Shown here in pieces: positions 39,197 to 45,406 of a stretch of 56,218 nucleotides of DNA. Within the stretch, counting starts at the first letter, position 1. Every line of letters starts with the position of its first letter. This stretch comes from Erysipelothrix sp. Lineage in GTDB: Bacteria; Bacillota_I; Bacilli_A; Erysipelotrichales; Erysipelotrichaceae. The position numbers and the translations under genes were made by a program. A model generated the notes under the pieces. The model ran no database searches. It was not told the DNA's origin and saw only the letters and a list, made by a program, of their open reading frames with translations. The stretch spans positions 1-56,218 of the forward strand of contig JAAYHR010000013.1 in NCBI GenBank assembly GCA_012735275.1. Reading direction: 5' to 3'.

Positions 39197-40181
39197 GAAT
39201 AGAAAAGATGAACATGTACGTTTAGCTTTGGCCCAAGTTGATTTAGCGCCAGCTTCTGACTTTGATTTAGTTAGTCTTGAACATGATTCAATTCCTAATT
39301 TAAAAGTTGATGATATTGATCTTACAACCAGTATTGCTGGGATTGATTTAGTCTCACCACTCTTCATAAATGCTATGACAGGTGGTAGTGATAAAACTAA
39401 AGGCATCAATGAGAAGTTAGCTGAAGTTGCTCGCTTAGTAAATATCCCAATTGCATCAGGCTCACTTAGTTCAGCACTAAAAAATCCGGATAATGAAGCA
39501 TCATTTTCAATCTTACGTAAGACCAATCCAGACGGAATTATCTTCGCTAATGTTGGGGCCGAGTATGATTTAAGTGCAGCTCAAAAAGCAGTTGATATCT
39601 TATCGGCAAATGCACTTCAAATTCATGTTAATGTTATTCAAGAAGTTGTAATGCCTGAAGGTGATCGTGACTTTACTAGTTGGAATACTAATATTGCTGA
39701 AATAGCAAAGAGTTTATCAGTACCATTGATAGTTAAAGAAGTGGGCTTTGGAATGAGTAGTGCCTCAATTAAAAAATTAATTAACTTAGGTGTGAAAACA
39801 ATTGACCTTAGTGGTTATGGTGGAACAAACTTCGCTAAAATTGAGAATGCCCGCCGTGAAGACTTCGATATGAGTTACTTAGAAAATATGGGAATATCCA
39901 CAGTACAATCATTAATCAATGCTAAAGACTATTTAAGTGAAGTTGAAATCATTGCCTCTGGAGGTATAAGAAATCCCTTAGATGTAATTAAATCACTAGC
40001 TATGGGTGCATCAGCTGTCGGTATGTCATCATTTGTTTTAAGTAATGTTGAAAAGCATGGAGTCAATAAGACAGTTGAAATACTTAATGCTTGGAACTAT
40101 CAACTAAAGTTAATTATGACTTTACTTGGAGTTAAGAATATTAAAGAATTACAAAAAATTAAAGTAAATATTAAATTATAG
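39189..40181 (+). CDS. fni: Isopentenyl-diphosphate isomerase, type 2
   Basis: From ATG 39189, preceded by AAGGAG, the protein has 330 residues; the track start eight codons earlier has no ribosome binding site. It has the family's MTGGSDKTKGIN motif near 59-70, VKEVGFGMS near 187 and the FMN-binding GGIRNPLDV near 257. It interconverts IPP and DMAPP using reduced FMN. It closes the lower mevalonate operon, which ends in a strong terminator. Confidence 0.92.
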   Translation: MIENRKDEHVRLALAQVDLAPASDFDLVSLEHDSIPNLKVDDIDLTTSIAGIDLVSPLFINAMTGGSDKTKGINEKLAEVARLVNIPIASGSLSSALKNPDNEASFSILRKTNPDGIIFANVGAEYDLSAAQKAVDILSANALQIHVNVIQEVVMPEGDRDFTSWNTNIAEIAKSLSVPLIVKEVGFGMSSASIKKLINLGVKTIDLSGYGGTNFAKIENARREDFDMSYLENMGISTVQSLINAKDYLSEVEIIASGGIRNPLDVIKSLAMGASAVGMSSFVLSNVEKHGVNKTVEILNAWNYQLKLIMTLLGVKNIKELQKIKVNIKL

Positions 40182-43108: not shown

Positions 43109-43137
43109 CATCAGCTAATCTAGTTGATGTTTTTTTT
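43109..43137 (+). terminator. Terminator after the lipoprotein gene
   Basis: CATCAGCTA (43109-43117) pairs with TAGTTGATG (43121-43129) with one G-T pair, followed by T8. It overlaps the stop codon of the convergent repressor gene. Confidence 0.8.
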
Positions 43138-43723
43138 AGAAGTCATGTTTAGCATATAATACTTTTCCAATAATTTTAATTGGGATTTCCATTACTTCTG
43201 CTTCAGAAAAATAACGGGCTTTAACATTTGGATTAGCCGCTTCTAAGATAAGCGTCTGGTCCTTTTTAATTACTCTTTTAACCGTTGCTTCTTCACCATT
43301 AATTAAGACAACCGCAATTGAGCCAGAATCAACGTCATCAACTTCCTTAACATAAATTAGTGAGTCAGGAAATATTTTCGCATCAATCATAGAATCACCA
43401 GTTACTCTTAAAAAGTAATCACCACGTTTGGCGTCCATTGAAGATACTAAAACATAGTCTTCAATATTCTCAACCGCATTAAGGTTATAGCCGGCCTTTA
43501 CAACCCCTAAGATTGGTTTGACTAGATCATATTTTAGGTAGTCATCGACATCAATATCTAAGAATTCCGATAACCTTTTTTTAGTTTGTGTATTTAATGA
43601 TTTTATTTCGCCTGATTCCCAACGACTTAGTGTTGCTTGCGATACGCCAATTTCACTAGCGAACTCTGCATTAGTTAAATTAGAAGCATACTTAAAATAT
43701 CCGATTAAGTCTTGTAATGTCAT
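43136..43723 (-). CDS. LexA-like HTH-S24 repressor (HdiR type)
   Basis: The 195-residue protein joins an XRE HTH (about 15-60, with IGVSQATLSRWESG) to an S24 peptidase domain. The self-cleavage residues are present: the A77-G78 bond in VKAGYN, nucleophile Ser111 in GDSMID and Lys149 in ATVKR. It should cut itself after DNA damage with RecA help. ATG 43723 is chosen over the TTG one codon earlier for its spacing to GAGGTG. It is divergent from a Y-family polymerase gene whose promoter carries a large inverted repeat. This matches HdiR-type local SOS control. Confidence 0.88.
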   Translation of the reverse strand: MTLQDLIGYFKYASNLTNAEFASEIGVSQATLSRWESGEIKSLNTQTKKRLSEFLDIDVDDYLKYDLVKPILGVVKAGYNLNAVENIEDYVLVSSMDAKRGDYFLRVTGDSMIDAKIFPDSLIYVKEVDDVDSGSIAVVLINGEEATVKRVIKKDQTLILEAANPNVKARYFSEAEVMEIPIKIIGKVLYAKHDF

Positions 43724-43797
43724 CAAATCACCTCATAACTATTATAACGCATTTATTAATAATCCGTAACTTATATTATAAAATTAGTAATAAGTAG

Positions 43798-43838
43798 CTA
43801 TATTTTTACGTAATTCATTGATATACGTAAAAATATAG
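43798..43838. promoter_or_regulatory. 15-bp inverted-repeat operator at the polymerase promoter
   Basis: CTATATTTTTACGTA (43798-43812) and TACGTAAAAATATAG (43824-43838) are perfect arms 11 bases apart. The right arm fills the space between the -35 and -10 boxes of the polymerase promoter. It is the likely operator of the adjacent LexA-like repressor. Confidence 0.8.
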
Positions 43839-43846
43839 GCTATAAT
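43818..43846 (+). promoter_or_regulatory. Promoter of the Y-family polymerase gene
   Basis: TTGATA (43818-43823) and TATAAT (43841-43846) have a 17-base spacer occupied by one operator arm. Confidence 0.8.
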
Positions 43847-43865
43847 TAAGTTAGAGGAGGTAAAA

Positions 43866-45113
43866 ATGCTGGAAAAGAAAATATTGCACATTGATATTAA
43901 TCATTGTTATGCACAAATAATGGAAATGCTCTATCCTGAGTTAAAGAATGTTCCGATGGCAGTCGGTGGTAATGAAGAGCGTCGTAGTGGGATTATCTTA
44001 GCGCGCAACCTCCACGCGAAAAAGTTTGGAGTTAAGACCGCAGAAACTTTAAGAGAAGCCTTTGATAAATGTCCAAACTTAACAATTACGGCACCTGATT
44101 TTTCCTTATTTATCTACTATTCAGAAATGGTTAAAAATATCTACCGCGAATATACGAGTCACGTTGAATCATTTGGTATTGATGAAGCCTGGTTAGACAT
44201 TACCCATAGTCAAAAATTACATGGTGATGCCGAAGCTATCATGTATGAAATCGCTGATCGCGTTTTAAATGAAGTTGGCTTAACTGTATCCTGTGGTTTA
44301 TCTTATAATAAGATTTTTGCTAAATTAGGTAGTGACCTAGTTAAGCCATCAGGTCGGGTTGTTATTAGTAAGGAGAATTTTAAAGAAGTTGTTTGGCCAT
44401 TGAATGTTGAAGAATTACTTTACGTTGGCTTTAAAACCCAAGAGAAATTAAATGCTGTTAAGATTATGACAATTGGCGACTTAGCCAACAAAACGAAAGA
44501 ATATATGCAGGATTTATTAGGTAAGAATGGTGAGATGATCTGGTATTTCGCTAATGGTTTTGATCTTAGTCAAGTCATGGAGAATGGTTATAATGAACCT
44601 GTTAAGTCAATTGGTAATTCGATTACCACACCTGAAGATATTAAAAACCGGACCGACGCTAAAATTGTCTTTCAAGTCTTAGCTGAATCAGTTGCTTCTC
44701 GCTTAAGAGATGCGAAGCTTCAAGCCGGAGTAATTGCTATATCATTAAGGGATGTTGAGTTACGGACAATCAGTCGGCAAAGAAAGATTAAACAAAGAAC
44801 TGATATATCGAGTGAAATTATGGAAGTAGTCATATCATTGTTAGATGAACACTATCCATTTTTTTTACCACTAAGATCAATTGGGATTAAAGCCAGTGAT
44901 CTCAGTGATAATGCAGGAGTTTACCAATTAAACTTCTTTCAAGATGAAAGCATTCGTAAGCGTGATAAGGATTTAGATATTTGTATTGATGAGATTCGTG
45001 ATAAATATGGATTTGAAGTTATTAGAAAGTTATCCACCGATTTAAATAAGAATCTAACTGATTTCAATCCCAAGGGTGAACATGTAATTTATCCAGTAGC
45101 CTGGTTTAAATAA
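43866..45113 (+). CDS. Y-family DNA polymerase (UmuC/DinB-like)
   Basis: The 415-residue protein has the Y-family catalytic residues in HIDINHCYA (Asp10) and FGIDEAWLDIT (Asp106, Glu107), helix-hairpin-helix thumb and little-finger regions. It copies past damaged bases with low fidelity. The gene is divergent from a self-cleaving repressor and has a damage-type operator on its promoter. It resembles the UmuC/UvrX branch of Gram-positive bacteria more than housekeeping DinB. GAGGAGG precedes the ATG. A small conserved-looking gene overlaps its stop codon. Confidence 0.88.
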   Translation: MLEKKILHIDINHCYAQIMEMLYPELKNVPMAVGGNEERRSGIILARNLHAKKFGVKTAETLREAFDKCPNLTITAPDFSLFIYYSEMVKNIYREYTSHVESFGIDEAWLDITHSQKLHGDAEAIMYEIADRVLNEVGLTVSCGLSYNKIFAKLGSDLVKPSGRVVISKENFKEVVWPLNVEELLYVGFKTQEKLNAVKIMTIGDLANKTKEYMQDLLGKNGEMIWYFANGFDLSQVMENGYNEPVKSIGNSITTPEDIKNRTDAKIVFQVLAESVASRLRDAKLQAGVIAISLRDVELRTISRQRKIKQRTDISSEIMEVVISLLDEHYPFFLPLRSIGIKASDLSDNAGVYQLNFFQDESIRKRDKDLDICIDEIRDKYGFEVIRKLSTDLNKNLTDFNPKGEHVIYPVAWFK

Positions 45114-45373
45114 TGGATATCAAGAAGAATTCAACTTTATATAAGCGTTATGTCAATGTGATTGCGGAAGCTGATAAGTTAGGTAACTTAACGCCGATAT
45201 ATTTACGTTGGGAAGATAATCAATTATTCAAGATTGATAAAATTATAGAAATCCGCCAATCAGTCTCACGTGTTGGTGGTAATGGAATCTTATATCGTGT
45301 AAGAATTCAAAATCGAGAACGGCATTTATTTTATGAAATAAATCGTTGGTTTATTGAATCATATACTCCATAA
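45113..45373 (+). CDS. Small protein co-translated with the Y-family polymerase
   Basis: This 86-residue protein has no family I can name with confidence. It is basic, with a central IDKIIEIRQSVSRVGGNG and a final WFIESY. Its ATG overlaps the polymerase stop (TAATG), so the two are coupled. The position matches that of YolD-type accessory proteins beside UvrX-like polymerases, and a role in translesion synthesis is inferred from this alone. Confidence 0.7.
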   Translation: MDIKKNSTLYKRYVNVIAEADKLGNLTPIYLRWEDNQLFKIDKIIEIRQSVSRVGGNGILYRVRIQNRERHLFYEINRWFIESYTP

Positions 45374-45402
45374 GAAAGGCACATCATTGATGTGCCTTTC
45401 TT
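45372..45402 (+). terminator. Terminator after the polymerase operon (bidirectional)
   Basis: AAGAAAGGCACAT (45372-45384) pairs with ATGTGCCTTTCTT (45390-45402) around CATTG. Confidence 0.85.
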
Positions 45403-45406
45403 GCAT

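Follow-up and report, generated by a model that had tools for sequence, protein, structure and literature searches.

Does a repressor gene that faces a translesion polymerase gene, with a small gene trailing behind the polymerase, constitute a DNA-damage switch that works without LexA, and what does the small protein do? The question is raised by one locus in a 56,218-nucleotide stretch of DNA (the window, analysed here as a whole) from an uncultured Erysipelotrichaceae bacterium. Among named relatives, the MAG Erysipelothrix sp. AS09scLD_16 is the closest; its homologues are 70% (SML), 84% (REP) and 65% (POL) identical to the proteins discussed below. The assembly has 63 contigs, totals 1.07 Mb and is about 85% complete. 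Our literature search found no published SOS system of Erysipelotrichaceae.

The locus consists of two diverging transcription units, REP on the minus strand and POL-SML (43866–45373) on the plus strand, separated by a gap of 142 bp. The ATG of SML overlaps the stop codon of POL by 1 nt, which bears out the coupling of the two genes noted in a preliminary description of this DNA, whose coordinates for the module (43136–45373) also hold. The features are as follows.

43136–43723, minus strand: REP, a 195-aa XRE/HTH_3 and S24 peptidase repressor with an A77-G78 cleavage site and an S111/K149 dyad
43743–43771: O2, an imperfect operator-like site (10+9+10) that covers the REP −35 (43769–43764) and adjoins the REP −10 (43746–43741)
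43798–43838: O1, a perfect 15-bp inverted repeat with an 11-bp spacer, its centre on the POL −35
43818–43846, plus strand: promoter-like site of POL-SML, TTGATA-17-TATAAT
43866–45113, plus strand: POL, a 415-aa Y-family polymerase with acidic residues D10, D106 and E107
44925–44939, plus strand: beta-clamp-type sequence motif QLNFF of POL (aa 354–358)
44970–45038, plus strand: RecA-NT-like motif of POL (aa 369–391), its top-scoring 23-mer against the RecA N-terminus of the same genome
45054–45110, plus strand: conserved C-terminal tail of POL, LTDFNPKGEHVIYPVAWFK (aa 397–415), the predicted SML docking site
45113–45373, plus strand: SML, an 86-aa small partner, predicted to be a six-stranded all-beta protein and translationally coupled to POL
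45371–45403, plus strand: intrinsic terminator downstream of SML, with a 15-bp stem

The repressor and the LexA question

For REP, the ATG at 43723 was preferable as start codon to the TTG at 43726. The protein matched Peptidase_S24 (E = 5e-23) and, at its N-terminus, HTH_3 (E = 1.5e-9). The complete cleavage triad that the preliminary description had ascribed to this LexA-like protein was confirmed: REP has the Ala-Gly site (A77-G78) and the Ser/Lys dyad (S111, K149) of self-cleaving S24 repressors. In an alignment of REP homologues, G78, S111 and K149 were conserved in 32/32 sequences, and position 77 held Ala in 28 sequences and Gly in the other 4. REP scored 77 bits against LexA model TIGR00498, below the curated cut-off of 110.95, and the match covered the S24 part only; with its HTH_3 N-terminus, REP falls outside LexA. 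It resembles phage CI-like repressors (phrog_4).

A check for lexA, proposed beforehand, found no LexA above the curated cut-off in the 1.07-Mb assembly; at a completeness of about 85%, the missing lexA could reflect an assembly gap. REP is the sole S24 protein encoded in the assembly, and recA is present.

HdiR/UmuR-UmuC are SOS modules of Streptococcaceae, whose repressors belong to a clade with Streptococcus phage repressors and undergo Clp-dependent processing. As in those modules, a phage-type HTH and S24 repressor is encoded here beside a Y-family polymerase gene, with no LexA in the assembly; unlike them, the host belongs to Erysipelotrichaceae, POL scores far higher against a DinB-type model than against UmuC, and the partner is not YolD. 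The likeness, which was drawn from gene arrangement, is fair as an analogy. The earlier proposal that the module works independently of LexA and pairs a self-cleaving repressor with a translesion polymerase is well supported by the residues, the operator position, conservation and the lack of any other S24 or LexA protein in the assembly. Its comparison with HdiR/UmuR stands as an analogy only.

A LexA-like protein is encoded in one member of the family in which SML was not found (locus L246, genome G042). LexA and the REP/SML system may substitute for each other within Erysipelotrichaceae.

Promoter and candidate operators

The best promoter-like site of the intergenic region (11/12 matches) has TTGATA starting at 43818, a 17-bp spacing and TATAAT ending at 43846. 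The arms of O1 (43798–43812 and 43824–43838) pair at 15/15 bp, and the 11-bp spacer includes the start of the −35. The dyad reads CTATATTTTTACGTA-N11-TACGTAAAAATATAG; its right arm lies between the POL −35 and −10, where the preliminary description had placed one arm of an inverted repeat. Its score was equalled by 0/60 dinucleotide shuffles of the intergenic region. When the whole 1.07-Mb assembly was scanned for O1 arms, as had also been suggested, the exact arm occurred only at the two places in O1, and the window held no further exact operator. With up to 2 mismatches, 7 matches were obtained in the assembly versus 13 for a reversed-pattern control. A 2-mismatch site at 39513, inside a coding gene, was set aside as an operator. 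No O1-type operator was present in the 260 bp before the recA start.

A weaker, O1-like site with equal spacing, O2, lies on the REP promoter at 43743–43771; it had been missed at first reading and was also recovered in a 3-mismatch search. In the window alone its significance was p = 0.23, and at equal position and spacing in a sister genome (L041) it was p = 0.001. O2 is presumed to be the site of REP autorepression, and from its position such autorepression is likely.

In 8 loci the best dyad was centred about 47–51 bp before the start codon, despite differing dyad letters (TTACGTA, GTTCCAAAA, GTTATCATTTT, TTGCGTAAAT and others across loci). A TTGA-type −35 was located at or near the dyad centre in most of those 8 loci and in further loci. 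In the majority of related loci, no dyad beat the shuffles. Likeness of the REP recognition helix goes with shared half-sites (for example AKSTVKRW with GTTCCA; SQATLSRW and SLATLSRW with TTACGTA) in a qualitative comparison, uncorrected for the kinship of the loci.

The polymerase and its small partner

POL contains IMS and IMS_C domains. Its best NCBIfam model, the DinB-type NF002848, scored 329 bits, which is under the cut-off of that model, versus 80 bits for UmuC. D10, D106 and E107 are present and conserved, as in active Y-family polymerases. Among SML-linked POLs the clamp motif is conserved, and I377, R378 and G382 of the RecA-NT-like segment are invariant; in most of them this segment was the best 23-mer against the RecA N-terminus of the same genome (z about 3–5). 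In the tail, P402 and H406 never vary and P410 is conserved at 97%. A related tail (IHPVxFF, IMPGxMY, LPGxMY) closes most Clostridial SML-linked POLs, although a strict tail pattern counts only 11/27. The tail is absent from the DinB-like polymerases of genomes that have SML and no POL. Because the UmuC tail binds UmuD' (PMC6511836), the conserved POL tail is predicted, by analogy, to be the SML docking site.

SML matched no family in Pfam, NCBIfam or PHROG. In an alignment of 37 sequences, P28, S52, G55, G58, W79, F80 and E82 were invariant, and K11, Y13, V16, G24, W33, G56, Y61, R70, L72 and E75 nearly so. The AlphaFold2 model (pLDDT 92.7) is all-beta with six strands, and a fold search with it gave no significant match in the PDB (best E = 0.39) or among viral models. 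A 2026 paper (PMC12926913) describes ImuB-C as a beta-barrel that has no close relatives in the PDB. Like ImuB-C, SML is predicted to be all-beta, lacks a close PDB relative and has a conserved C-terminal Trp (W79, invariant at n = 37).

The identity of SML with YolD/YqjX (PF08863) was rejected, as there was no Pfam match and the profile-profile score lay inside the shuffle range. The DUF6504 profile (PF20114) matched neither SML nor its 36 homologues and had no match in the genome of SML; it had none in S. meliloti pSymB either. The set used for comparison with ImuB-C consisted of standalone Deinococcus proteins (NCBI 'DUF6504') and was kept separate from ImuB C-termini. Against the standalone profiles, 56–64 columns of SML were aligned, near its full length, with weak scores. 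The profile P was 0.003 for the mainly Erysipelotrichaceae SML set and 2e-4 for the Clostridial SML set, and the scores were reached by 0/100 column shuffles. Against ImuB C-termini, the profile score of SML fell inside the shuffle range.

The Clostridial homologues of SML are certain (profile P = 5e-40). The preliminary description had left the partner unrecognised; it is a member of a wide Bacillota family linked to the POL class. The neighbours found for this family are of ImuB-C type, namely Y-family polymerase, DUF955-type peptidase and Ku/ligase. Aravind and colleagues (PMC3765255) reported ImuB-C in DUF955-like peptidase and Ku plus ligase contexts, and in 2019 Timinskas and Venclovas noted Clostridial YqjH-type polymerases coupled to ImuB-C (PMC6511836). 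Since the profile alignment and the gene contexts support it independently, membership of SML in the ImuB-C superfamily is likely. The most likely identity of SML is a divergent, standalone subunit of ImuB-C type; this ancestry rests on weak sequence scores and is unproven because DUF6504 was not reached and ImuB C-termini did not align directly.

One locus of interest (L119, Oscillospiraceae plasmid CP141730.1) has POL-SML near genes for Ku, DNA ligase and a SIR2-family protein. On an Alicyclobacillus plasmid (L118, 2636–2890), an 84-aa hypothetical protein, unrelated to SML by eye, is encoded upstream of the genes for a Y-family polymerase and YolD.

Recurrence and the proposed damage switch

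SML was detected in 92/146 sampled Erysipelotrichaceae genomes. Longicatena and Breznakia are examples of cultured, non-pathogenic relatives with the module. In 40 homologous loci, REP was divergent from POL-SML in 26, POL-SML lacked an adjacent REP in 5, REP was divergent from SML without POL in 5, and SML stood alone in 4; SML thus followed POL in 31/40. The neighbourhoods vary between genera, and the only neighbour in the window that is shared in place is the downstream ABC gene, in the closest relative. Clostridial SML genes adjoin POL or a DUF955-like peptidase gene, with no REP nearby.

Seven genomes, 85–98% complete, have SML and no POL (G141, G103, G092, G022, G120, G070 and G098); the polymerases of this kind that they carry are only DinB-like, at about 30% identity. 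In G141, G103, G092 and G022, REP directly faces SML (L052, L061, L071 and L078, respectively), and no POL-type gene was found anywhere in these four genomes. G120 and G098 encode a REP-like S24 protein away from SML, and TTGA/TCAAGT-type dyads lie upstream of their SML genes. The module, described beforehand as local, is so in the present genome; across the family the term does not hold, as REP sits apart from its presumed targets in some relatives.

We consider it probable, from these sequence comparisons, that the locus is a damage switch resembling HdiR that drives a PolY-(ImuB-C-like)-RecA mutasome. REP would bind the 41-bp dyad O1 and block RNA polymerase at the −35 of POL-SML; at the promoter of its own gene, the weaker site O2 is probably bound by REP too. 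RecA filaments on damaged DNA would trigger REP cleavage at Ala77-Gly78 via Ser111/Lys149, which would free the promoter, and POL and SML would be made together. POL, predicted to be an active YqjH/DinB-type Y-family polymerase, would contact the sliding clamp through QLNFF and RecA through its RecA-NT-like motif. The small beta protein SML, probably of ImuB-C descent, would dock on the POL tail as an accessory subunit, in a role that may parallel that of UmuD' for UmuC and perhaps that of YolD for UvrX/YqjW. We infer that the function of the complex is mutagenic.

Putative PolY-ImuB-C-RecA mutasomes occur in Clostridial YqjH subgroups and as lexA-imuB-C-polY in Geobacter (PMC6511836, PMC12926913). 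They share with the present locus an active Y-family polymerase, clamp and RecA-NT motifs and a coupled small all-beta protein. They differ in that here a dedicated, divergent phage-type repressor replaces LexA, SML has diverged too far to match DUF6504, and some relatives of the module have no polymerase. Bacillus UvrX/YqjW-YolD/YqjX likewise pair a damage-inducible polymerase (damage induction is a prediction here) with a small beta partner and have a conserved polymerase tail; however, neither Pfam nor profile comparison relates SML to YolD.

A role purely as POL accessory does not explain the genomes that keep SML, often with REP, and have no POL. Because of these genomes, SML may serve other partners or have a regulatory role, and three readings build on this. 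SML might be a co-regulator of REP, like DdrR for UmuDAb in Acinetobacter, its place behind POL only securing induction from the shared promoter. The Acinetobacter system also has an S24 repressor divergent from a small-protein gene and no LexA; DdrR has 78–81 aa and its gene is divergent from umuDAb (PMC7273328), and the 5 loci in which REP diverges from SML without POL, 4 of them in POL-less genomes, fit this arrangement. However, DdrR is confined to Acinetobacter, whereas the host here belongs to Bacillota and SML normally follows the polymerase gene; Clostridial SML accompanies POL or the peptidase with no REP nearby, and the conserved tail is common to SML-linked POLs. We regard a co-regulator as improbable. 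It is somewhat less improbable, though still unlikely, that SML acts independently, as a beta protein that binds lesions or DNA and can serve DinB, POL or other repair enzymes. Such a role has been proposed for ImuB-C domains in general (PMC3765255), and the retention of SML in POL-less genomes and its place near Ku and ligase genes on the Oscillospiraceae plasmid agree with it, but by far the commonest link of SML is to POL, with conservation of the tail. It is about as unlikely that REP and SML make up a core pair in the damage response that outlives POL, in which SML (co-regulator, RecA binder or DNA binder) is also a POL accessory where POL is present; this would be a LexA-independent SOS of Erysipelotrichaceae of a type undescribed in the literature searched.

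That the module is a remnant of a phage or mobile element, with a repressor flanking a polymerase by chance, is very improbable. REP does resemble phage repressors and the neighbourhoods do vary between genera, but none of the immediate neighbours in the window is a phage gene and the gene order is repeated in many genera. This reading was set aside because the unit is kept across genera without phage genes.

An error-prone polymerase under S24 control is an ordinary kind of system. What the literature searched does not describe is the variant seen here, which joins a dedicated repressor of phage type to a YqjH/DinB-like polymerase and a divergent subunit resembling ImuB-C, and which recurs family-wide. 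The preferred reading, a damage switch driving a mutasome, points to LexA-independent control of the damage response in a family of common animal-gut bacteria. It also suggests a testable role for the unannotated SML family, its Clostridial homologues included, and picks out a short POL tail as the predicted docking site. Genomes with REP and SML and without POL offer a test of whether an ImuB-C-like protein acts without such a Y-family partner, a question that dates from the definition of ImuB-C.

Several loci depart from the common arrangement. In L063, L068 and L072, SML stands alone and has a TTGA...TCAAGT-type dyad of its own immediately upstream; REP is absent within the fetched stretch, and the stem AAAGAAAGCTCA..TGAGCTTTCTTT precedes SML in all three. 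In Clostridia, including Peptococcaceae-type loci, SML lies behind a DUF955-like peptidase gene and divergent from POL (L108, L110–L113, L218, L220 and L225), and in L112 also behind an XRE gene; these loci are possibly a peptidase-controlled form of the REP/POL-SML switch. In L065, the gap between REP and POL is disrupted and measures about 1.1 kb instead of the usual 0.14 kb or so, and its end resembles the 3′ region of a group II intron.
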